Shown piece by piece: positions 21,384 to 63,343 of a DNA stretch of 64,000 bases. The position numbers were made by a program, and so were the translations under genes. Position 1 is the stretch's first letter. Every line of letters begins with the position of its first letter. Where the stretch lies: NCBI RefSeq assembly GCF_027797465.1, contig NZ_CP115608.1:1302001-1366000 (forward strand). Direction: 5' to 3'. Below the pieces are notes generated by a model, which searched no databases, was not told the DNA's origin, and saw only the letters and a list, made by a program, of their open reading frames with translations. The DNA comes from Campylobacter sp. CN_NE2. Lineage in GTDB: Bacteria > Campylobacterota > Campylobacteria > Campylobacterales > Campylobacteraceae.

Positions 21384-22064
21384 TTGCAAAATAAAGTCTA
21401 TTTTAATATTTCCAAATTCGACGCTATTATCGATACTGGCGCGAATTTAGGTGAGCTTGAAATTTACAAAAAAAGTCCAGATTTAACGCATATCGCCCCT
21501 ATTGAGCGAAGAAGACTTAGTAAGGGGGCTAGATTTTGCATTTCGCTCTTAAAAGAGTGCGATGAAATGCCTGTGATTTTTAGCTCAAAGCACGGCGAGA
21601 TAAATCGCTGTTTTTCTTTGCAATCTAGCCTAGCTAGACTTGAACCGCTCTCTCCTGCTTCATTTTGCATTAGCGTTCATAATGCGATTGTGGCACAAAA
21701 TGCGATTTTTGCCAAAAACAGGGCTGAAATTTCAGCGATTTCTACAAATTTAAGCCTAGAAAACGGAATTTTAAATGCCGTAGCTAAATTTGATGAATTT
21801 GATAAAATAGCGATTATTAGCTATTTTGAGAGCATAAATAATGAACTTATGAACGAAAATGATTTGATTTATGCGATTTTGGTTGTAGTAGAAAAAGGCA
21901 AAAATTTTAGCATTGAAATTTCACCAAATAACGAGCCAAATTTAGCAAATTTGACTAAAAATAGCGATTTTGAATTTTTGCTAAATCTAAAAAATCACAA
22001 AAAATCTTGGGTTACAAAAGAGCAAGATTTAAGCTGGAAATGGGTCGATGAAACTGCTATTTAG
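21384..22064 (+). CDS. apeC: Chain-length-factor-like ketosynthase, ApeC-like
   Basis: The 226 aa product resembles the short ketoacyl-synthase N-terminal family (Ketoacyl-synt_2) found as ApeC in APE clusters: LTHIAPIERRRLSKGARFCISLLKEC, a SSKHGEI segment, then LEPLSPASFCISVHNAI. There is no catalytic SACTS motif, as expected for a chain-length factor that dimerises with the active KS (ApeO). TTG start at 21384 with SD AGGGG. Overlaps the acyltransferase gene by 17 bp. First gene of APE block 2. Confidence 0.8.
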   Translation: MQNKVYFNISKFDAIIDTGANLGELEIYKKSPDLTHIAPIERRRLSKGARFCISLLKECDEMPVIFSSKHGEINRCFSLQSSLARLEPLSPASFCISVHNAIVAQNAIFAKNRAEISAISTNLSLENGILNAVAKFDEFDKIAIISYFESINNELMNENDLIYAILVVVEKGKNFSIEISPNNEPNLANLTKNSDFEFLLNLKNHKKSWVTKEQDLSWKWVDETAI

Positions 22065-22791
22065 GCGAATTTGCGTAGCGTTATGCTTTGCAAGTTTTGG
22101 CATTATTTGCATGGTTGGAAATCTCTTTTTTATTCCCGTAATAATACTGCGATTAAACAAATTTAAAATCATAGAAAATTTCGCTAGGGATTTGGTTTTT
22201 GTGGCTTGGCGAGTGTTTTTGTATTTGATTGTGTTTTATGGATACGCAAAAATAGATTTTAGAGCAAAATTTGTTCGCAAAGATAGCGCTATCATCATCA
22301 TCGCAAACCACCCGTCCTTGCTCGATGTTGTGTTGCTTTTATCTCACATACGCAGGGCAAATTGCATAGTAAAGGCAAGTTTAGCAAAAAATATTTTTTT
22401 ATTTGGGGCGATAAAATCGGCAAATTATATTTTAAATACAGAAAATGAAAAAATGCTAGAACTATCAAAAAAAGCGTTGCAAAATGGAGAAAATTTGATT
22501 ATTTTTCCAGAAGGCACTCGCACGAAGGATAAAATTTACATGCAAAAAGGCGCATTTTATATAGCCATAAACTGCGCAAAAGAGCTAATTGCGCTAGGCA
22601 TAAAAATGTCGCCAAAAAGCTTAAAAAAAGGACAATCGTGGTATGATACGCCACAAAATAAGATAAAATATGAAGTGGATATTTTAGAAAATTTAGATTT
22701 GAGCAAATTTGAAAAATCTCGTTCAAATCCGATTCGAGTTAGATTATTACACGAAAAAATGCAAAATTTATATGAAAGGCAAGATTTATGA
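22048..22791 (+). CDS. PlsC-like 1-acyl-glycerol-3-phosphate acyltransferase (APE cluster)
   Basis: A 247 aa membrane-bound acyltransferase with N-terminal hydrophobic segments, the catalytic HX4D motif in ANHPSLLDVVLL (about 88-99) and FPEGTRT (about 152-158). In APE clusters a protein of this type occupies the apeD position and is thought to help attach the acyl chain to a lipid acceptor. It overlaps apeC by 17 bp and the first ACP by 4 bp. Confidence 0.85.
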   Translation: MKLLFRRICVALCFASFGIICMVGNLFFIPVIILRLNKFKIIENFARDLVFVAWRVFLYLIVFYGYAKIDFRAKFVRKDSAIIIIANHPSLLDVVLLLSHIRRANCIVKASLAKNIFLFGAIKSANYILNTENEKMLELSKKALQNGENLIIFPEGTRTKDKIYMQKGAFYIAINCAKELIALGIKMSPKSLKKGQSWYDTPQNKIKYEVDILENLDLSKFEKSRSNPIRVRLLHEKMQNLYERQDL

Positions 22792-23045
22792 GTGATCTTA
22801 TTTTAGAGATTAAAGAGATGATTATCTCAGGGCTTAACCTTGAAGATATGAGCGTGAGCGACATCGACGAAAATGCACCGCTTTTTGGAGAAGGACTTGG
22901 GCTCGATAGCGTCGATGCGCTTGAACTTGGACTTTTGATCCAAAAAAAATATGACATTGTTATAAACTCAAAAACTGAAAATGTCAAAGAAATTTTCGCA
23001 AATGTCGTAAATTTGGCAGATTTTATATCAAAAAATAGGAAATAA
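22788..23045 (+). CDS. apeE: Acyl carrier protein 1 (ApeE-like)
   Basis: The 85 aa acidic protein has the phosphopantetheine site GLGLDSVDALEL with Ser41. It is overlapped by 4 bp with the acyltransferase gene. In APE systems one ACP carries the aryl starter and chain; two dissimilar ACPs in tandem are a hallmark of these clusters. Confidence 0.88.
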   Translation: MSDLILEIKEMIISGLNLEDMSVSDIDENAPLFGEGLGLDSVDALELGLLIQKKYDIVINSKTENVKEIFANVVNLADFISKNRK

Positions 23046-23046
23046 A

Positions 23047-23298
23047 ATGGATAAAAATCAGATTTTTGAAATTCTAAAACAGGCTTTGGTTGAGCTTTTT
23101 GAGATAGATGAAAGCAAAATTTCGCTTGATGCTAAGATTTATGAAGACTTAGACATAGATAGCATTGATGCGATTGATTTGGTTGATTTTGTCAAAAAAC
23201 AAACAGGTCATAAACTAATGCCAGAAGACTTCAAAGCCATAAAAACGCTTGGCGATATTGTTGAGGTCGTGGCGAAAAAATACCAAATCGGCGAGTAA
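23047..23298 (+). CDS. apeF: Acyl carrier protein 2 (ApeF-like)
   Basis: The 83 aa acidic carrier protein has DLDIDSIDAIDL with Ser39 as the phosphopantetheine site. It starts 1 bp after ACP 1. The sequence is closer to standard ACPs than ACP 1 and clearly not a recent copy of it. It is the second substrate of the PPTase encoded at 6303. Confidence 0.88.
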   Translation: MDKNQIFEILKQALVELFEIDESKISLDAKIYEDLDIDSIDAIDLVDFVKKQTGHKLMPEDFKAIKTLGDIVEVVAKKYQIGE

Positions 23299-23300
23299 AT

Positions 23301-23852
23301 TTGAAAACTTTTTTAAAGGCGATAATTACGCTTTTTAGCGTGATTTATCCTTTTGGAATTGTCTTTTTTAGAGAGTTTAGCCTTTATTTATTGATTATAA
23401 TGGCGATTTTATGGGGACTGCGCGGGATTTTGGAATTTGGCTTTGAGAGCAAAAATTTAAGCGAATTTGGTAAATTTAGTTTTGTTATGTGCGGTTTTTT
23501 CGCACTTTGTGCGGTTTTTAGTGCTTATGGGATAAAATATCTTTATCCTGTGCTAATAAATGCTTTTTTGGGGGCAGTTTTTTATTTTAGCTTAGCTAAC
23601 ACGCCGATGATAACTAAATTTGCTATGTTAAAAGAAAGAAATTTAGAGCCAAAAGCTTTGATTTATACTAGAAATTTAACCAAAATTTGGATAGGATTTT
23701 TTATTTTTAACGGGCTTATAAGTGCGATTTTGGCGTGTTTTGAAAACAAAATTTATTGGGGTGTTTATTGTGGGGCGATTTCTTATGTTTTGGTAGGAGC
23801 GTTGCTTTTTGGCGAGATTATTTTTAGGAAGTTTTATATAAAAAATGCGTGA
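23301..23852 (+). CDS. APE-cluster integral membrane protein (COG4648-like)
   Basis: The 183 aa protein has about five hydrophobic segments and matches by size and position the COG4648 membrane protein that follows the ACPs in APE clusters (apeG position). Function unknown. TTG 23301 directly follows the ACP stop; the end overlaps the AMP-ligase start by 8 bp. The identification is mainly by context. Confidence 0.7.
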   Translation: MKTFLKAIITLFSVIYPFGIVFFREFSLYLLIIMAILWGLRGILEFGFESKNLSEFGKFSFVMCGFFALCAVFSAYGIKYLYPVLINAFLGAVFYFSLANTPMITKFAMLKERNLEPKALIYTRNLTKIWIGFFIFNGLISAILACFENKIYWGVYCGAISYVLVGALLFGEIIFRKFYIKNA

Positions 23853-25371
23853 ATTTATACAAAATTTAAGTGAAATTTCGGAGCAAATTTGCAAATTTGC
23901 AGCTGTTTTAAAAAATAAAAACATAAAGCGAACTCAAATTTTCCTAAGCGATATGAGTGAGTTTAAAATCGCCTTTTTTGGGGCGATGCTAGCAGGGACA
24001 AAACCTGAACTTTTAAGAGATAATCATTTTGAAGACGGTTTTTTTGGCATTGATGATGAAAAATTTGCCAAGATTTGTGCTGAGTTTGAAAATTTGAGCG
24101 AATTTGGCGAATTAAATTTAAACGGAAGCGAGATTTTTTATCTAAAAACTTCGGGAAGCACAGGCAAACCAAAAAACATTCAAAAGTCGCTTTTGGATAT
24201 GGTCTTAGAAGCAAAGCATTTAGCAAAAGCCCTAAATTTAAGCTCCCAAGAGCAGTTTTTAGCCAGTGTAACTCACCAAAATATGTTTGGGCTGACATTT
24301 AAGTTTTTTTTGCCGTTAGTTTTGGACGCGAAGTCTTATAAGGGCGAATACAACTACCCTGAAATTATTTTTGATCAAAGCCTAAATGGCTCTATTTTGA
24401 TCTCATCGCCTACGATTTTAAACGCACTTTATCAGCACAAAAACGCCAAAAAAATAGCAAATTTAAAAATGATAATCTCAGCAGGAGCTAGGCTTCCGCA
24501 AAATTTGCGAGATGAATTAAATAAAATCACAAATGCTAAAATCGTCGATATTTACGGATCTAGCGAAACGGGCGTTGTAGGGGCAAATTTAGGAATGGGG
24601 CTTAAAAAATTTGAGCCTGTGAATTTAGAAGTGGGCAGTAAAGGCGAACTCATCATAACTTCGCCTTGGTGCAAAAGGTTCGAAAGTAGCGATAGCGGCG
24701 AGATTAGAGGCGATGATATTATTTTGCACGGACGGCTTGATAGGATTGTTAAATTTAGCGAAAAGCGCGTAAATTTAGACGCCATAGAAGAAAAATTAAA
24801 TCAAAATGAACTTATAAAAGACTGCAAACTAGGGCTTCACCCAAAATTTGAGCGAATTTTGGCTTTGATAGTTTTAAGCGAGAGCGGCGAAGAAGAGTTT
24901 AGAAAAAACGGCAAAAAAAGCGTCGTAGAAAACTTAAAAAAATATCTAAAATATGATTTTGGCTCGGTTGTAAGGTATTTTAAAATAGTCAGCAAAGTCC
25001 CGTATTCTGCGCAAAGTAAGGTAAAAAAAGATGATTTCATAAAAGCTTATGAAACCTACGAAATGCCTGAATTTACGCAAATTTCGCAAAATGAATTCAA
25101 GGCAAAGATTAAGCCAAGTGATTTTTATTTTGACGGACATTTTGCGAGTTTTCCTGTGGTACCGGGCTTTATGCAGTTTAAATTTGCTAGGATTTGCGCA
25201 GAAAAATTAGGATATGATTTGCAAAATTTAAGCCATATTCCAAGCATAAAATTTATGCACTTTATCCGTCCAAATGACGAAATAATCGTATCGTTTGAGA
25301 AAAAAGAAAAAACGCTAAGTTTTAAAATCAAAAGTCAAAAAGAGTGTTGCAATGGAAAAATCAGCCTTTAA
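23845..25371 (+). CDS. apeH: Aryl-ACP AMP-ligase fused to a 3-hydroxyacyl-ACP dehydratase (ApeH-ApeI)
   Basis: Residues 1-400 are an adenylate-forming ligase: KTSGSTGKPK (about 103-112) P-loop, DIYGSSETG (about 233-241), HGRLDRIVKF (about 292-301) hinge and an acidic-basic C-terminal domain ending near SKVPYSAQSKVKKDDF. Residues about 410-508 are a hotdog dehydratase domain with FYFDGHFASFPVVPGFMQ, the FabZ/ApeI signature with its catalytic His. The ligase activates the aryl starter acid for loading on ACP. In E. coli-type clusters these are two genes, here one 508 aa protein. It overlaps the glycosyltransferase gene by 20 bp. Confidence 0.85.
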   Translation: MREFIQNLSEISEQICKFAAVLKNKNIKRTQIFLSDMSEFKIAFFGAMLAGTKPELLRDNHFEDGFFGIDDEKFAKICAEFENLSEFGELNLNGSEIFYLKTSGSTGKPKNIQKSLLDMVLEAKHLAKALNLSSQEQFLASVTHQNMFGLTFKFFLPLVLDAKSYKGEYNYPEIIFDQSLNGSILISSPTILNALYQHKNAKKIANLKMIISAGARLPQNLRDELNKITNAKIVDIYGSSETGVVGANLGMGLKKFEPVNLEVGSKGELIITSPWCKRFESSDSGEIRGDDIILHGRLDRIVKFSEKRVNLDAIEEKLNQNELIKDCKLGLHPKFERILALIVLSESGEEEFRKNGKKSVVENLKKYLKYDFGSVVRYFKIVSKVPYSAQSKVKKDDFIKAYETYEMPEFTQISQNEFKAKIKPSDFYFDGHFASFPVVPGFMQFKFARICAEKLGYDLQNLSHIPSIKFMHFIRPNDEIIVSFEKKEKTLSFKIKSQKECCNGKISL

Positions 25372-26071
25372 GCCTGTTTTTTTGGTGCCTTACTACAACC
25401 ACCCCGCTAAAATCGCCGTTTTAGTAGAAAATTTATCAAAAATGGGCGAGATTTTAATCATCGATGACGGCAGTGATGAAGTTAGCAAAAATGCACTAAT
25501 CGGCTTAAAAGCTGAAATTTTTACTCGCGAAAACAACGGCGGCAAGGGCGCTGCACTCAAAGACGGATTTAAAATCGCTTTGCAAAAAGGCTACACTCAC
25601 GCATTTCAAATCGATGCTGATTTTCAGCATGATATTTCAAAATGCGACGATTTTTTGCAAATCGCACAAATAAATCCGCACTCGCTAATATGCGCCAATC
25701 CGATTTACGATGAAAATGCACCAAAAAGCCGTTTTTACGGACGCAAAATAACAAATTTTTGGTGCGCCATAAATTCTCTTTCAAGCGACATAAAAGACGG
25801 CATGTGCGGGTTTAGAATTTATCCCTTAAAAGAGATTTGCGAAATTTTACCAAGCGTAAAAGATGATCGCATGGGCTTTGATATCGAAATTTTGGTTCAA
25901 GCTTACAGAGCGAAAATAAACCTAAAATGGATTGAGCTGAAAGTTCGCTACGAGAAGGGCGGGGTTAGCCATTTTCGCATGTTTAGGGATAATTTTCAAA
26001 TTTCACTAACCCACGCAAGGCTGTTTTTCACGCTTCCCTTATGGTTGGTAAAAAGGGCATTTCATGGCTAA
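25352..26071 (+). CDS. Family 2 glycosyltransferase (APE cluster)
   Basis: A 239 aa GT-A enzyme of the dolichyl-phosphate-mannose-synthase type: VFLVPYYNH start, IIDDGSDE (about 35-42), ENNGGKGAALKDG (about 60-72) and the metal-binding IDADFQHD (about 86-93). In many APE clusters this domain is the N-terminal half of one protein with the acyltransferase encoded just downstream; here they are separate with an 8 bp overlap. It probably adds the sugar that bears the polyene ester. Confidence 0.82.
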   Translation: MEKSAFKPVFLVPYYNHPAKIAVLVENLSKMGEILIIDDGSDEVSKNALIGLKAEIFTRENNGGKGAALKDGFKIALQKGYTHAFQIDADFQHDISKCDDFLQIAQINPHSLICANPIYDENAPKSRFYGRKITNFWCAINSLSSDIKDGMCGFRIYPLKEICEILPSVKDDRMGFDIEILVQAYRAKINLKWIELKVRYEKGGVSHFRMFRDNFQISLTHARLFFTLPLWLVKRAFHG

Positions 26072-26969
26072 GCACTGGGCAGAGCAAAACGAAGTCGCAC
26101 CAAGTTTATTTTTAAAAGCGACATTTTTTTTGGTTACAAAACTGCCTAGTTTTATCGTTAAGTGTATCGTATTTATCGTGGTTAGCGTCTATTTTTTGTT
26201 TTTAAAAAATCAAAGAGAAAATATAATAAATTTTAGAAAAAATGTCGCACAAAGTGGCGGAAAAATAAGCGGAAACGCGTATGCGAATTTTTATAATTTT
26301 GGCGTTGCAATCTGCGATAAAATCGCCATTTGGACAAATAAAAAGGGAATAGAAATCGACCGAACAAATTTAGAAAAAATTCGCTCACAGCTCGACGGCG
26401 TAAAACGGGGCAAAATTTTGCTAACTAGCCATTATGGCAATATCGAAGTGGCAAAAGCCCTTGTGAGCGAACTTGGTCGCACGAAAATAAATATCTTTAT
26501 GTATCGCGCAAACAATGCTAAATTTAACGAATTTATGGATAAAGTCAGTGGCGGGAAAATCAATGTCTTTTGGGTCGATGAACTAAATATTGAAACTATG
26601 CTAAATTTGGGAAATTTGCTAGATAACGGCGAACATATCGCTATAATGGCAGATCGTGTGCCGATAAAAAGCGAAAAGGTCGCAAGTGCCAAATTTTTGG
26701 GAAAAACGGCGAATTTTAGCATTGGAGCGTATCTCATAGCAGGGATTTTAAAGGCTGAAATTTACTCATTTTGGTGTTACAAAGTAGGCAAAAAATATAC
26801 TTTTGAAACGAAAAAACTGCCAAGCGTGGAGCTAAAAAGCGATAAAATCGCTTCTGTAATGCCTGCTTTGAGAGCGTATGTGGCGGATTTAGAGAGCAAA
26901 TGCGTAAGCGATCCCGCGCAATGGTATAATTTTTTTGATTTTTGGGGGCAAGGTGAAAAAGAGCTATAA
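26064..26969 (+). CDS. LpxL/HtrB-like acyltransferase (COG4261, APE cluster)
   Basis: The 301 aa protein has one N-terminal membrane anchor (about 22-48), the HX4E catalytic motif in SHYGNIEV (about 125-132), an ADRVP segment (about 196) and a C-terminal PAQWYNFFDFWG, as in lysophospholipid and lipid A late acyltransferases. It is the predicted enzyme that joins the finished polyene or a fatty acid to the sugar lipid. It overlaps both neighbours. Confidence 0.82.
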   Translation: MAKHWAEQNEVAPSLFLKATFFLVTKLPSFIVKCIVFIVVSVYFLFLKNQRENIINFRKNVAQSGGKISGNAYANFYNFGVAICDKIAIWTNKKGIEIDRTNLEKIRSQLDGVKRGKILLTSHYGNIEVAKALVSELGRTKINIFMYRANNAKFNEFMDKVSGGKINVFWVDELNIETMLNLGNLLDNGEHIAIMADRVPIKSEKVASAKFLGKTANFSIGAYLIAGILKAEIYSFWCYKVGKKYTFETKKLPSVELKSDKIASVMPALRAYVADLESKCVSDPAQWYNFFDFWGQGEKEL

Positions 26970-27357
26970 ATTTAGAGTTGAGTTTTATGATACCGACAGC
27001 ATGGGCGTAGTGTGGCACGGAAACTATGTCAAATACTGCGAAATGGCGCGGTGTGCGTTTTTGCGCGAGATCGGCTACACTTATATCGATATGAAAAATG
27101 ACGGATACGCTTATCCGATTGTGAAAATGGATTTTAAATTTGTGCGTCCTGCGATGTTTGATGATGAAATTTGTGTTGAAGTAGAATTGAGCGAATTTGA
27201 AAGCTTACTTAAATTTAAATACACCATAAAAAACGCTGATACGGGCGAAATTTTATGCAAGGCAACCACTGCCCAAGCAGCGGTAAATTTAGAAAATATG
27301 GAAACCTGCTTTTATCTACCTGAGATTTTAAAAGAAAAATTAAAGGGACTAAAATAA
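26953..27357 (+). CDS. apeK: YbgC/4HBT-type thioesterase (ApeK-like)
   Basis: The 134 aa hotdog thioesterase shows the family signature YDTDSMGVVWHGNYVKYCEMAR near its N-terminus, with the catalytic Asp and the following His. I chose GTG 26953, which has a strong SD (GGGGGCAAG) and starts with KKSYKFRVEFYD; the frame is open from TTG 26935. It overlaps the acyltransferase by 17 bp and ends APE block 2. It likely hydrolyses stalled or finished thioesters from the ACPs. Confidence 0.85.
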   Translation: MKKSYKFRVEFYDTDSMGVVWHGNYVKYCEMARCAFLREIGYTYIDMKNDGYAYPIVKMDFKFVRPAMFDDEICVEVELSEFESLLKFKYTIKNADTGEILCKATTAQAAVNLENMETCFYLPEILKEKLKGLK

Positions 27358-27379
27358 AATTGGATAAACATATAAATTT

Positions 27380-27399
27380 GGTGGGCAAGGATACCCACC
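27380..27399. terminator. GC-rich hairpin between convergent genes
   Basis: GGTGGG (27380-27385) and CCCACC (27394-27399) enclose CAAGGATA, followed by CTACGGTCC. This is the only GC-rich stretch in the area and lies between the converging thioesterase and the minus-strand small-protein gene. Similar GGTGGG-CCCACC repeats are widespread in bacteria. Confidence 0.55.
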
Positions 27400-27420
27400 C
27401 TACGGTCCTTAAATAAAAAT

Positions 27421-27714
27421 TCACCTGCAACCACCGAACCAACTATCACCGTGCGTGCAATCAGATTTTTTAGATTGAGTTTGTTTCTTCGAGGCTGTTT
27501 TCTTTTGAGTCACTTTTTTTTGACCTAGTTTCTTTTTCAATTGCTCATTCTCATATTTTAGTTTATCGTTTTCTTCCATTAGCTGATCAACAGCCTCTCG
27601 CCATTTTGCACTATTTTCTGCAAGTTGTGCTTCGCAACTATCTGCCATAGCAAATGAAGCAGAACCCATTAATAAGCCTAATGCTAAACCAACTTTTACA
27701 AAACTTTTTGTCAT
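27421..27714 (-). CDS. Small secreted coiled-coil protein
   Basis: The 97 aa product has a signal peptide (about 1-24, ending SFAMA), then a coiled coil (about 30-66) with ENDKLKYENEQLKKKLG-type heptads, a Lys/Thr/Ser/Gln-rich segment, and a C-terminal DSWFGGCR with two cysteines near the end (three Cys in all). The cysteine and glycine pattern suggests a surface or periplasmic role, but I do not recognise a family. SD AAGGAG precedes the ATG. A 14-G tract lies 48 bp upstream, at the position of a -35 element, so expression may be phase variable. Confidence 0.7.
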   Translation of the reverse strand: MTKSFVKVGLALGLLMGSASFAMADSCEAQLAENSAKWREAVDQLMEENDKLKYENEQLKKKLGQKKVTQKKTASKKQTQSKKSDCTHGDSWFGGCR

Positions 27715-27761
27715 TTTTGACTCCTTGTAGAAAATTTTATAAAAAATTATCCATAATTTTA

Positions 27762-27775
27762 CCCCCCCCCCCCCC
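27762..27775 (-). repeat. Poly-G tract (14 G on the minus strand)
   Basis: Fourteen uninterrupted C on the plus strand (G on the minus strand). On the minus strand it precedes a TATAAA (27741-27736) by about 20 bp and the ATG at 27714 by 48 bp. In Campylobacter, G tracts of this length change length frequently and switch genes on and off. It lies outside any supported coding frame, so an effect on promoter spacing is the likely mode. Confidence 0.85.
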
Positions 27776-27896
27776 TAATAAAAACTTAAATTTTCAATTT
27801 TTTTTGAAAAAAATGAAAAATTTGATGATTTTTTCTAAATTTTGATAAAAAAATAGAGAATTTAAAAAATATTTTGTGTTTTTTTGTCAAAGAAGT

Positions 27897-28841
27897 TTAT
27901 GAAATAGATTTAAAACGAATTCTCTCAATAGGTTTTTCGATGAATTTATAAGCTAAAAGTCCGAATAAAAATGAAGAAATAATCATAAAAGTTATGTTTA
28001 GTTCATCAAATTTCCACATACAGATACAATAAAACAGTGCGTGGTTTAAAAATATGTGATAGCTTAAAGCCCCGCAAACGCTATTAAATTTGGCTTTAAA
28101 TTTGATTTGTGATAGCTCATAAACAAGCGGAATGCCGACTAATACGGCAAAAGGTAATTCAAAAGAAACAGCATCACAATAATATATATTTACAATAAGT
28201 TCTATAAACAATATAGCCCACCAAATTCTAAGTTCTTTTAGTTTCTTTTCTCTGATTAATTTGCCTATATAAAAAACAAAAAACACTCCCCAAAAATATC
28301 TATAATCCCACATATAAATCATTTCATTATCTATAAGCACCAAATTTGATATAGTGAAAATAATAAATGAAATAATGGCTAAAATTTTCATAAATTTCTC
28401 TTTTTTCAGGGCAAATAAAAGCGCAAAGATAAAATAAATTTGGACTTCAAGAGCTAATGAAAAAGCAGGCGGTAAAATTATATCACTCTTATCATTGACT
28501 ACACTTACTACTCCAATATCAAATATTAGATTGTAATTTAACGGAATAAGCGTAAAATGTGCGAGTGTCCTTAATAAGGTTGTTCTAAATTCCCAAAAAC
28601 CACTAAAATAAAAAAATAAAAATGCTAAACTTATATAAAGGAAAAACACAGGATAAATGCGTAAAAATCTATCTTTAAGATATTCTTTTGGAGAGTATAA
28701 ATTTAGTAATTTTGTGCTAACAGAACCTGCTAAAATATAAAAAATAAATACACAAAATGGACCAAAATTTATCAATGGTTTATCAAGTATGTGATGAAAC
28801 ATTACACCACAAGCTAAAATAAGTCGCAAATATCCTATCAT
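27897..28841 (-). CDS. Acyltransferase family 3 membrane protein (OafA-like)
   Basis: The 314 aa protein has about ten hydrophobic helices and the family features YLRLILACGVMFHH (His17 region, the catalytic His pair zone), the RFLRIYPVFFLY motif (about 58-69) and a typical final helix with FIEKPIERIR. Family members O-acetylate surface sugars. It is slightly short for the family but shows both ends. Its strand and very AT-rich sequence differ from the APE genes around it. With the small secreted protein it forms the insert that splits the thioesterase from the carrier/exporter genes. Confidence 0.82.
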   Translation of the reverse strand: MIGYLRLILACGVMFHHILDKPLINFGPFCVFIFYILAGSVSTKLLNLYSPKEYLKDRFLRIYPVFFLYISLAFLFFYFSGFWEFRTTLLRTLAHFTLIPLNYNLIFDIGVVSVVNDKSDIILPPAFSLALEVQIYFIFALLFALKKEKFMKILAIISFIIFTISNLVLIDNEMIYMWDYRYFWGVFFVFYIGKLIREKKLKELRIWWAILFIELIVNIYYCDAVSFELPFAVLVGIPLVYELSQIKFKAKFNSVCGALSYHIFLNHALFYCICMWKFDELNITFMIISSFLFGLLAYKFIEKPIERIRFKSIS

Positions 28842-28912
28842 TTTTTAAAAATCCTTTGTGAAATGTTACTTTTTGAAACTTAAAAATTATTTATATTAAA
28901 GTTGCTAACAAG

Positions 28913-28962
28913 TTTAAAATTTCGGCGCAGTATCTAAGATTGCGTTAGCGTGAAATTTTAAA
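28913..28962. repeat. Palindromic intergenic element
   Basis: TTTAAAATTTC (28913-28923) and GAAATTTTAAA (28952-28962) are perfect 11 bp arms around a centre GGCGCAGTATCTAAGATTGCGTTAGCGT that itself folds (CGCA-ATCT with AGAT-TGCG). It occupies the gap between the divergent acyltransferase-3 gene and the LolA-like gene. Its build recalls the larger element at 44867-44946. Confidence 0.55.
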
Positions 28963-29068
28963 TTTTAAAAGAAATTTGACCCAAAATAGCACTTTTACAA
29001 AATTTAGCAATATTTATTTTATGAGTTATAGTAAAATTAATAAATTTTTTTGATTATCAAGGAATAAA

Positions 29069-29587
29069 ATGAGAATTTTGCTTTCGTTTTTGGCATTTTG
29101 TGGTTTGGTTTTTGGCTTGGAAGTGGGCGAGTTAAATCTCAAAACCGACAACATAAGCGGTAAATTTAACGAAGAGATGATTTTGGGCGGATTTGACGAG
29201 CCGATTAAAAGTAGTGGCGAGTTTGAAATAAAAAACAAAGAGCTTATTTGGCATATAAAAGAACCGCTCGAAAGTAGCGTTAAAATCGCACAAAATGGCA
29301 TTTTTAGCCTAGAAAACGGCAAATGGGAACTGCAAAAAAACTCACTCATGGATAAAGAGCTTTTTTTGGCGATTTTTTCTTTGGATTTTGGCGTTTTGCA
29401 AAAAGATTTTGACATTTCGCTAAGTGGCGAAAGTGGCGCATGGGAGCTAAATTTAAGCCCAAAAGGGACGCTTTTTAAAGAAATTTTTAAAAACATTATC
29501 ATAAAAGGTGGCGAAATGGTGCGAGAAATCGCCATTACTAACGCGCAGGGCGATGAAACAAGGACTTTGTTTAGCGATGTTAAATAA
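29069..29587 (+). CDS. LolA-like periplasmic carrier protein (APE cluster)
   Basis: The 172 aa product has a signal peptide (MRILLSFLAFCGLVFG) and the beta-rich pattern of LolA-type lipid carriers, with FEIKNKELIWHIKEPLES (about 50-67) matching the LolA strand in which the cargo is bound. APE clusters regularly encode a LolA-like protein before the MMPL exporter, and the pair moves the polyene lipid to the outer membrane. It overlaps the exporter gene by 11 bp. Confidence 0.78.
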   Translation: MRILLSFLAFCGLVFGLEVGELNLKTDNISGKFNEEMILGGFDEPIKSSGEFEIKNKELIWHIKEPLESSVKIAQNGIFSLENGKWELQKNSLMDKELFLAIFSLDFGVLQKDFDISLSGESGAWELNLSPKGTLFKEIFKNIIIKGGEMVREIAITNAQGDETRTLFSDVK

Positions 29588-31712
29588 AGCCGTTTTTGCC
29601 ATAACTTTTGCCATAATGAGCGTTTTTATCGCTTTGAATTTGGGCAAAATAAATTCCGATATTTACGGCTTAATCGGGTTCGATAAAGAAAGCAAGGAAA
29701 TTTTTACCAACCTAAATAATAGTTTAAGAGATGAGATAATTTTTGCTTCAAATGATAAAATGAAATTTGAAAATTTTATCGCAGAGTGCGAAAATAGCGG
29801 GATTTTTAGCGAAATTTTATATAAGATAAATTCGATAAAAGATTATCAAAAAGAGCTTGAAATTTACAAAATCGCACTTTTGGACGATGAGAGCGTAAAT
29901 TTACTCGAAAACGATGCTACTGCCTTTTTTGCGCGAAGTCAGGCGGATTTTTTCAATAAATTTAAGCCGTTAAGTGCTTCGCAGGATTTTTTTTCATTGA
30001 CTCTTCACTCAGAGATTTTAAAAGGCGGCGGCGGGATTAAATTTGATATGAGTGAAAATCGATTTTACGGCGAGATCGAAAGCCAAAAATATTATTTTGC
30101 CAAAGCAAAATTAGAGCAAATTTATGATGAAAATGTGCTTTTAAATTTAACCCAAATCGCAAAAAATAGCGAAATTCTTATAAGCGGCGGTGCGATTTAC
30201 TCGGCACTTGGGAAAAATTCGGCTAAATTTGAAAGTGCGTTTATGGGAAGTTTTTCGCTGATAATCTGCGCTATTTTGCTATTTTTGGCTTTTAAAAACG
30301 CTAGAATTTTTGCCGTTACTGGCGTAGTGGCTTTTGGGCTAGTTAGCGGGGTGTTTGCGTTATTTTTGTTTTTTGAGAGCGTTCATAGCATAAGCGTGGT
30401 GATTTCGACTAGCTTAATCGGACTAATGCTCGATTTTAGCGCACATTGGCTTGGCTCAAATGCAAATTCGCTGGTAAAAAAACAGAGCATAAAAGATATG
30501 AAAAAAATCTTTTTGTTAGGCTTTTTTATTACCGCTGGGGGATACGCTGTATTTTTGTTTTCGTCGTTTGATTTGCTTTTGCAAATTGCGGTGTTTGCGA
30601 TATTTGCGCTTTTGGGAGCGTTTTTATTTTCTTATTTTATGTTGCCTGAAATTTTTGATAATTGCGAATTCAAAAGCTCTAAAATTTGGGATAAATTTTT
30701 GCAAATTTTGATTAAATTCTCTGCTAAATTTAAATTCGTAAATTTGAAATTTAATCTTGTTTGCATAGCGATTTTAACGCTATTTTTGTATAATTTTGCC
30801 GTTTTTAAAGACGACATTAGCGAGTATTCTAGTATGGATAAAACGCTTTTGCAAATGAGCGCTAAACTATCCACGCTAAGCTCTCAAAGTTATGATTTGG
30901 CGGTTTTAGATAGTGGCTCAAATGTGCCAAATACGCTTCTTTCTAACGAAATCATCGGCTCGTATTTGAGTGCGGAAAAATTTATCCAAAGCCCAAAAAC
31001 GCAAGAAAAAATAATTCAAATTTTTGCAAATTCCAATGCAGATTTGATGAAAGGCATAAATCCAAATTTGGTTCAAAAAGAGCTTGACAAACTCGCAAAT
31101 TCGCAGGTCTTCACGCAAAATGAAGTTTTAAATTCATCGCTTTTTTTAAATTTAAAAAATTTGCAAATAGATGATAAAAATATCGTTTTTTTATACGATA
31201 TAAAAGATAAAATCGCATTAAAAAATGCCATTTTAGCAGGTGGCGGAGCGTATTTAAGCTTCAAAGATAGCGCAAATTCGGCATTTTTAAACATTAAGAT
31301 AAATGCGATTTACCTTAAAATCATCGCTTACGCCTTAGCCTTTGCGCTTTTGTGTTATTTTTTCGGATTAAAAATCAGTGCAAATATCGTCACGGCGGTA
31401 TTTTTATCAAATTTAATAACACTTTTTATCCTTAGTATTTTTGGTTTTTCTATCAATATTTTTGTGATTTTTGGGCTAATTTTAGCGGGGGCTGTGGGGG
31501 TTGATTATATGATTTTTGCGTTAAATTCGCACCTTCAAACAGCCAAAAAAACCTTTGGCATAAGCGTTGCGGCTCTTACTAGCATGGTTTCATTTTTTGC
31601 TCTTAGTTTTAGTGGGACTGCGGCGGTAGCGGTTTTTGGGCTAAGTGTGGCGATAAACATCGCGATTTGTGCGTTTTTAGCAGGAATTTACGCCAATAAA
31701 TTCACTGCCTAA
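29577..31712 (+). CDS. MMPL/RND-family exporter (APE cluster)
   Basis: A polytopic transporter of about 711 aa with the duplicated layout of MMPL proteins: one N-terminal helix, a large periplasmic domain (about 30-210), a helix block that holds STSLIGLMLDFSAHW with the membrane Asp, a second periplasmic domain (about 410-570) and a final block with LAGAVGVDYMIFAL. I start at ATG 29577, where the first helix begins (MLNKAVFAIT); ATG 29553 is also possible. It is the predicted exporter of the aryl polyene lipid and ends the APE locus. It converges on pldA, overlapping it by 11 bp. Confidence 0.85.
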   Translation: MLNKAVFAITFAIMSVFIALNLGKINSDIYGLIGFDKESKEIFTNLNNSLRDEIIFASNDKMKFENFIAECENSGIFSEILYKINSIKDYQKELEIYKIALLDDESVNLLENDATAFFARSQADFFNKFKPLSASQDFFSLTLHSEILKGGGGIKFDMSENRFYGEIESQKYYFAKAKLEQIYDENVLLNLTQIAKNSEILISGGAIYSALGKNSAKFESAFMGSFSLIICAILLFLAFKNARIFAVTGVVAFGLVSGVFALFLFFESVHSISVVISTSLIGLMLDFSAHWLGSNANSLVKKQSIKDMKKIFLLGFFITAGGYAVFLFSSFDLLLQIAVFAIFALLGAFLFSYFMLPEIFDNCEFKSSKIWDKFLQILIKFSAKFKFVNLKFNLVCIAILTLFLYNFAVFKDDISEYSSMDKTLLQMSAKLSTLSSQSYDLAVLDSGSNVPNTLLSNEIIGSYLSAEKFIQSPKTQEKIIQIFANSNADLMKGINPNLVQKELDKLANSQVFTQNEVLNSSLFLNLKNLQIDDKNIVFLYDIKDKIALKNAILAGGGAYLSFKDSANSAFLNIKINAIYLKIIAYALAFALLCYFFGLKISANIVTAVFLSNLITLFILSIFGFSINIFVIFGLILAGAVGVDYMIFALNSHLQTAKKTFGISVAALTSMVSFFALSFSGTAAVAVFGLSVAINIAICAFLAGIYANKFTA

Positions 31713-33286: not shown

Positions 33287-34171
33287 TTACCGAGTTATAT
33301 TTATGTCTATTGCTAATGGTTTTTCTATTGTTTTATTAGAAATATTATTGCAAATGTAATATATTGCTGAGCCAACAAATATGATACTAAAAAATATAAC
33401 AAATGCGAAAAACGGTGCTTTAAAAGAAAATTTCTTATTGTTTAATTTTAAGATAAACCAAAATAAAGAAAAAATAATTGTGCCAATAAAAATAGCAATT
33501 ACACTAATTATCATGAGTAATATAGAAAAATCAAATTTTCCAATATTGCTTAATATTTGATTTGAAAATCCAATACCACTTGTAAATGAAATTATAATTG
33601 CACTAAAAATACCAAGAATTGTTACATGGTTTGTTTTTGAAATTTCTAAATTTTTATTTAATTTTTCTGCTTCTTTGTTTAAATTACTAGTTTCTGTTTT
33701 TAATTTTTCTGCTTCTCTGTTCAGCTTGCTAGTTTCTGTTTCTATTTTTTTTATATCGCTACCATATTTTTTCGATATGTATTCATGTCTAATTATTTCC
33801 AAATCAATATGGTCTTTTAATTTGAATATTTTTTTTATTTCATCTTTATTTTTATTATTATCATCTTTTTGTATGGCTTCTATGATTTTTTCAATATTAC
33901 TGGTAATTATAGATAAATTTTCAAATTTTTCTTCTTTATCTTGTTTAACTAAATTTATCAAAAATTGACTTATATCTGCGTAACTATGTCTAAAAGTATT
34001 ATCTTTATATATTTCAAATATTTCAGCGATTTTCTTTTCAATATCACTTTCGGCTATAATTTCTTTTGAAATGGATTCTATAAATTTTATTAGCTTTGTT
34101 TGTTTTGATAAATTTTCGTTTTGTTGAGTTGATTTTAAAATATCTTTCTGAAAATTATCTGGTTTTATCAT
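33287..34171 (-). CDS. Coiled-coil membrane protein, candidate toxin partner of a DUF4065 antitoxin
   Basis: The 294 aa protein has an alpha-helical, highly charged N-terminal half, a coiled coil (about 150-190) containing a 14-residue tandem repeat (TETSKLNREAEKLK then TETSNLNKEAEKLN), and three C-terminal membrane helices (about 195-215, 225-255, 258-280) followed by a short polar tail. No enzyme motif was found. It starts 2 bp after the stop of the DUF4065 gene, so the two are co-expressed. By analogy with Panacea-type systems it would be the toxin, acting at the membrane; this is inference. The pair sits between leuC and mobA and is much more AT-rich than either. Confidence 0.6.
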   Translation of the reverse strand: MIKPDNFQKDILKSTQQNENLSKQTKLIKFIESISKEIIAESDIEKKIAEIFEIYKDNTFRHSYADISQFLINLVKQDKEEKFENLSIITSNIEKIIEAIQKDDNNKNKDEIKKIFKLKDHIDLEIIRHEYISKKYGSDIKKIETETSKLNREAEKLKTETSNLNKEAEKLNKNLEISKTNHVTILGIFSAIIISFTSGIGFSNQILSNIGKFDFSILLMIISVIAIFIGTIIFSLFWFILKLNNKKFSFKAPFFAFVIFFSIIFVGSAIYYICNNISNKTIEKPLAIDINITR

Positions 34172-63329: not shown

Positions 63330-63343
63330 TTTTTTTTTTTTTT
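63330..63343 (+). repeat. Fourteen-T tract in a promoter
   Basis: T14 (63330-63343), one G, then T7 (63345-63351), directly before the extended -10 TGCTATAAT. The tract fills the -20 to -35 zone, where T-tracts replace a -35 element in Campylobacter. Its length is in the slippable range. Confidence 0.75.

Follow-up and report, generated by a model that had tools for sequence, protein, structure and literature searches.

A run of 14 Gs upstream of a gene for a small exported protein is the predicted spacer of a Campylobacter promoter. This promoter-spacer repeat separates a -35-like element, TTTAAGTTTT, from a -10 hexamer, TAAAAT (Table 1), both elements being predicted from the sequence, and changes in its length probably cause transcriptional phase variation of the exported protein. 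The G14 tract lies on the reverse strand of the stretch of DNA that was analyzed (the window, 64,000 nucleotides) and is the sole run of at least eight Gs or Cs in these 64 kb. Runs of at least nine As or Ts are limited to T13 (1309-1321) and T14 (63330-63343).

A sequence-only reading of this DNA had proposed that a small exported protein is preceded by a promoter-located G tract of the kind known from contingency loci. The proposal is supported in this respect, and promoters of the same layout are found at other loci (sister promoters).

Table 1 Features of the G14 promoter and its surroundings, in window positions
Feature	Position	Strand	Basis
G14 tract (C14 on +), predicted promoter spacer	27762..27775	-	sequence
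-10 hexamer TAAAAT (predicted), adjoins tract	27756..27761	-	TANNAT enrichment at offset 0, likeness to GGTAAAAT
-35-like element TTTAAGTTTT, 19 nt from -10	27781..27790	-	perfect match to consensus TTTAAGTnTT
TATAAA, -10 of the sequence-only reading	27736..27741	-	second -10 unenriched at such distance in sister promoters
Ribosome-binding site AAGGAG	27721..27726	-	sequence position
Small exported coiled-coil protein, 97 aa, two genome copies	27421..27714	-	
336-bp block near-identical to second copy (acyltransferase end, promoter, signal peptide)	27635..27970	-	
Acyltransferase-3 family membrane protein (PF01757), upstream cassette partner	27897..28841	-	Pfam
Dispersed repeat with GGTGGGCAAGGATACCCACC hairpin, bordering the variable cassette site on one side	27354..27420	.	

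Predicted anatomy of the G14 promoter

The promoter region is composed, in the 5′ to 3′ direction of the reverse strand, of TTTAAGTTTT, the five nucleotides TATTA, the G14 tract, TAAAAT, 41 nt that include AAGGAG, and the ATG. The tract is close to the ATG, as the sequence-only reading had noted, with 47 nt between them. The consensus of C. jejuni promoters consists of a -35 element TTTAAGTnTT, a -16 element TTTTTTTG, and a -10 element TATAAT, and promoter scans in this species use spacers of 15-19 bp (PMC3824568). The G14 promoter agrees with a Campylobacter sigma-70 promoter in five of six -10 positions, in all positions of the -35 element, and in its spacer of 19 nt (17 nt in the paralogous copy).

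The -16 region TTTTTTTG and the extended -10 motif TGx are absent from the G14 promoter, and the G tract stands in their place. The -16 element is common, not universal, in C. jejuni promoters; in the cj0183 promoter, activity increased about twofold with the consensus -35 and was abolished by replacement of the -16 region (PMC3824568). Only the G adjoining the -10 is kept from the extended -10, as in GGTAAAAT; the C. jejuni CRISPR repeat terminates in this sequence, which resembles an extended -10 and from which transcription starts (PMC3656092). A clear -35 box of the usual type is absent from Campylobacter promoters (PMC3656092). The effect of the spacer could be mild, because the -35 regions of C. 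jejuni promoters are weakly conserved (PMC3656092, PMC3824568).

Tract length differs between copies and lineages

The two genome copies of the 336-bp block differ by one substitution, one A inserted or deleted in an A-run, and the length of the G tract (G14 versus G12). Outside the block, the copies are strongly diverged. Judged by its sequence, the block looks recently homogenized, with the repeats changed and almost nothing else. The promoter of the second copy contains G12 and has a 17-nt spacer.

Tract length varies between lineages and copies in the genome assemblies, in which homopolymer lengths can carry an error of one or two bases. The paralogs have G14 and G12, one orthologous sister promoter has G9AG9 in the source genome and G10 in a same-species genome, and a second one has G10 in the source genome and G13 in another close relative. 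One orthologous pair of tracts is equal in length, with G15 in both the source and the same-species genome. The paralog is the only length comparison for the G14 tract, because the cassette that carries it is absent from the site in both of the nearest genomes. A DNA search of the genus with the intergenic region returned mostly AT-rich chance matches, which ranked below the paralog. A search for the MutL family (PF01119) gave no match in the source genome and a match in 11 of 14 controls.

A G-rich element that does not switch, in which the Gs supply a favorable base at -13/-14 and length has little effect, would explain the resemblance of this position to the extended -10 (GGTAAAAT, PMC3656092), and many sister tracts indeed comprise only 8-9 Gs. 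We consider it unlikely, however, since runs of 12-15 Gs would hardly be kept for the sake of two bases in a genome with no detectable MutL, and since tract lengths differ between copies and strains.

The promoter layout recurs in Campylobacter

The source genome (1,536,821 bp, one contig) was searched for tracts by pattern and contains nine runs of at least eight Gs. TANNAT directly follows six of the nine runs, the backward-control pattern has no match in this genome, and TANNAT occupies 0.8% of window positions. The layout is more than chance, because only nine such runs exist and six of them abut a hexamer with so low a background. Across 14 genomes of the genus, TANNAT abuts 32 of 136 tract ends, with one match for the backward control. 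An unselected set, in which all tracts of four genomes were fetched regardless of their 3′ flank, has TANNAT at offset 0 in 18 of 42 tracts; because these genomes are relatives of one another and share some tracts as orthologs, the counts are not independent events. The enrichment claims rest on the source-genome and genus counts and on the unselected set, because the other loci were chosen for carrying the pattern (L040-L069 and L124-L166 were so chosen; L100-L123 are unselected).

The offset profile of 49 non-coding tracts, which includes 14 loci chosen for the pattern, has TANNAT at offset 0 in 28 cases, at other offsets in 0-3 cases, and at offset 20 in none. This profile bears on the geometry of the sequence-only reading, in which TATAAA at 27741-27736 is the -10, and the tract lies on the -35 zone and tunes it. 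TATAAA is present where it was reported, and a 17-nt spacer would set a -35 hexamer on the edge of the tract. Such a geometry is nevertheless quite unlikely: TANNAT peaks after G tracts at offset 0 with nothing at offset 20, transcription started from TATAAA would leave about 15 nt of leader and put the ribosome site into its first bases, and the -35 box of the usual type that it calls for is not clear in Campylobacter promoters (PMC3656092). By its sequence context, the predicted -10 is almost certainly TAAAAT adjoining the tract rather than TATAAA 20 nt downstream, and TATAAA is probably mere AT-rich leader. The tract separates TTTAAGTTTT from the -10 and is not located at the -35 position.

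A further 57 non-redundant promoters from the family Campylobacteraceae were selected on G8 and TANNAT followed by a Shine-Dalgarno sequence and a start codon; none was chosen for TTAAG. The hexamers of these sister promoters are mainly TAAAAT, TATAAT, TAGAAT, and TATTAT, and the start codon is mostly positioned 33-40 nt past the tract. In 36 of the 57, the 30 nt that immediately precede the tract contain TTAAG; for two control windows of 30 nt further upstream, the counts are 0 and 3. The distances from the end of TTAAG to the -10 fall into two clusters, 12-13 and 20-25, and the ranges 15-18 and 26-34 are empty. A distance of 20-25 equals 16-21 from the end of TTTAAGTnTT, near the published range. 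The 12-13 cluster lies about one helical turn nearer to the -10, consistent with the periodic signal of 10-11 bp that has been reported for C. jejuni (PMC3824568). Signal-like products are encoded downstream of 35 of the 57 promoters, versus 13 of 43 background open reading frames classified by the same crude rule.

These spacings also bear on a location of the tract in the mRNA 5′ leader, where it would act post-transcriptionally. The G-repeat of H. pylori tlpB, targeted by the small RNA RepG, provides an example of an intergenic G tract before a gene in the same phylum (PMC8295292). We regard a leader tract as very unlikely, as the tracts have hexamers resembling a -10 at a constant position, their downstream edge, and TTAAG at set distances upstream, an architecture that predicts a transcription start downstream of the tract.

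The layout is abundant in genome G127, in which 17 of 51 tract ends abut TANNAT. About ten loci of this genome (L065, L139, L141, L145, L147, L149, L157, L159, L161, and L165) encode one long exported, coiled-coil-rich family with the N-terminus MKFSKIACVALLSASISTVALA and sizes of 487-490 aa, which are minimum sizes. Each of these loci has its own G8-11-TAAAAT promoter.

Several other tracts differ in arrangement. Two paralogous zinc-ribbon genes (L038 and L039) have G15-TATGAT and G10-TATAAT promoters. The upstream half of the first of these promoters precedes a different gene, that of a lipoprotein, in genome G005 (L115 and L119), as if the zinc-ribbon promoter sequence had been reused there. 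A C15 run (L094; G091:C29:7578-7592) and a G9 run (L092) are each located immediately before ATTGTATAAT and upstream of similar small exported proteins (MKLAN/MKLAK), and the base of the tract may, to judge from this sequence pair, be replaceable. A G18 run (G000:C1:1170316-1170333; L037:3817-3834) is positioned between convergent genes beside the inverted repeat TTAAGGGGGAAAGGGGC...GCCCCTTTCCCCCTTAA, and its layout is not that of a promoter tract.

The tract is outside coding sequence

The G14 tract lies outside any reading frame, as do repeats of the promoter-spacer class of phase-variable loci, and the sequence-only reading was right in calling it non-coding: no credible open reading frame covers it. 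Translational phase variation of a longer frame with the tract at its 5′ end is hardly credible and was rejected, for although with G14 the frame is open over the 20 codons from the tract to the ATG (117 aa in all), this stretch contains no ATG, GTG, or TTG, a TAG at the upstream edge of the tract closes the frame, all frames run into stops immediately before the tract, and a strong Shine-Dalgarno sequence and a signal peptide accompany the ATG at 27714.

The exported protein and the acyltransferase belong to a strain-specific cassette

The small exported protein begins with a typical signal peptide (MTKSFVKVGLALGLLMGSASFAMA, followed by DSC), and its body is charged and resembles a coiled coil. 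The two genome copies are 82% identical over residues 1-79. The earlier description of a secreted coiled-coil protein is borne out with regard to the signal peptide; the coiled coil rests on the charged character of the body and on matches to Pfam and NCBIfam, all of them sub-threshold coiled-coil ones. No relatives of the protein outside the source genome were found in 60 related genomes, the contigs of GTDB, the same-species genome, or viral contigs, and there is therefore no ortholog of the G14 tract for comparison.

The acyltransferase is 39% identical to the product of a plasmid gene of Campylobacter sp. RM16187, and a pattern scan of GTDB contigs found no relatives of it. A paralogous pair of acyltransferase and small gene is located at L003:4566-5501, the second copy lying at 760 kb in the genome. 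In two close relatives with flanks about 96-98% identical, the acyltransferase and the small gene are absent from the site and other small open reading frames are found instead, flanked by copies of the dispersed GGTGGGCAAGGAT(A/G)CCCACC repeat. The pair is, by sequence comparison, a strain-specific cassette, because it is replaced by other open reading frames in these two relatives. The content of the site differs among three close genomes, which suggests that the position beside the GGTGGGCAAGGATACCCACC repeat (27354-27420; L098; L099) is a hotspot of cassette exchange.

The sequence-only reading had suggested that the acyltransferase gene may belong to the same surface trait as the small gene. 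The two genes travel together, being duplicated as a pair and jointly absent from two relatives at this site; the acyltransferase gene shares the strand of the tract and lies 5′ of it, and is therefore not driven by the tract promoter. A function shared by the two products is plausible on these sequence grounds, because the genes were duplicated together.

The genes around the cassette (window 21384-31712) resemble an aryl-polyene-type lipid cluster. The cluster encodes ketosynthase-like, PlsC-like acyltransferase, AMP-binding, GT2, LpxL-like acyltransferase, 4HBT thioesterase, and LolA-like proteins, as well as a 734-aa exporter-like protein with no Pfam match. The cassette is inserted between the 4HBT thioesterase and the LolA-like gene. 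Elsewhere in the window, two tandem 42-nt units that are 88% alike (33657-33740) are located inside an open reading frame on the reverse strand (33287-34171) that has no Pfam match.

Proposed mechanism and significance

We hypothesize that the gene of the small exported protein is transcribed from a housekeeping-sigma promoter in which the G14 tract is a hypermutable spacer. Replication slippage at the tract would alter both the distance and the helical phase between TTTAAGTTTT and TAAAAT, and the Gs touching the -10 would be unchanged at whatever tract length. Tract length would set the strength of the promoter, in a graded or an on/off manner, with transcription starting about 5-7 nt past TAAAAT. 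The G12 copy, with its 17-nt spacer, would be nearer to the optimum, and the G14 copy, with 19 nt, would be near the published upper limit. Tract length would be expected to vary within a population.

On balance, we lean towards the view that a standard module, composed of TTTAAG, a short AT stretch, poly-G, and TA(T/A/G)AAT, precedes genes of exported proteins in several Campylobacter lineages, among which it would have spread by duplication and promoter reuse. The exported proteome would be varied combinatorially by transcription, not by frameshift. The layout gives many repeats outside open reading frames a concrete and testable role, that of a G-tract spacer between recognizable promoter boxes, and the length of the spacer can be read directly from the sequence. 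This arrangement suggests transcription as the main level at which some lineages switch their exported proteins.

Comparison with known systems

The type strain of C. mucosalis is reported to contain 51 GC tracts, 49 of which are hypervariable in sequencing reads (PMC11457942). The statement of the sequence-only reading that most G tracts of Campylobacter lie within reading frames needs a qualification, as promoter tracts are not unprecedented in Campylobacterota. A PhasomeIt survey placed 25% of Campylobacter simple sequence repeats outside open reading frames and left their expression state unassigned (PMC6321876), and tracts in putative or predicted promoters are known from Campylobacter capC and Helicobacter canadensis. 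In the literature that we covered, which is incomplete, we found no description of the recurrent layout of a -35 element, poly-G, and an abutting -10, and we claim no priority for it.

The autotransporter gene capC of Campylobacter resembles the locus described here in combining a G tract, a putative promoter, and an exported protein within the same bacterial family, but its product is a large autotransporter, unlike the 97-aa protein; that slippage of the tract affects capC expression is described there as no more than conceivable (PMC7168839). The H. canadensis tracts (G13-G16) lie in predicted promoters, as the G14 tract does, and vary in sequencing reads, but they belong to another genus (PMC2823697).

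The tlpB gene of H. pylori is likewise preceded by a non-coding, variable G repeat, which is however located in the mRNA leader and bound by a small RNA, whereas the G14 tract is predicted to lie upstream of the start site (PMC8295292). The sabA gene of H. pylori, also an Epsilonproteobacterium, has a promoter-proximal repeat, a T-tract that acts as a rheostat, its length shifting the alignment of upstream elements relative to the core promoter; the T-tract is beside the -35, whereas the G tract touches the -10 (PMC4081817). The C-stretch of Bordetella fim2, fim3, and fimX is a homopolymer in a promoter as well, and a change of one base in fimX altered transcript levels 3.8-fold. The fim promoters are, however, activator-dependent, and the distance concerned is that from the activator site to the -10 (PMC1891110).

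The closest resemblance is to Neisseria porA, opc, and fetA, in which an unstable homopolymer is located between the -10 and the -35 (PMC2791445 and references there). The two systems share a poly-G/C spacer between promoter elements, the length of which should determine how strongly a surface or exported protein is transcribed. The relation of length to expression has been proven for the three Neisseria genes, whereas here it is a prediction. The upstream element is the Neisseria -35 box in one case and the Campylobacter TTTAAGTnTT element in the other. Unlike the Neisseria spacers, the G14 tract touches the -10 directly, and its layout recurs at many loci.
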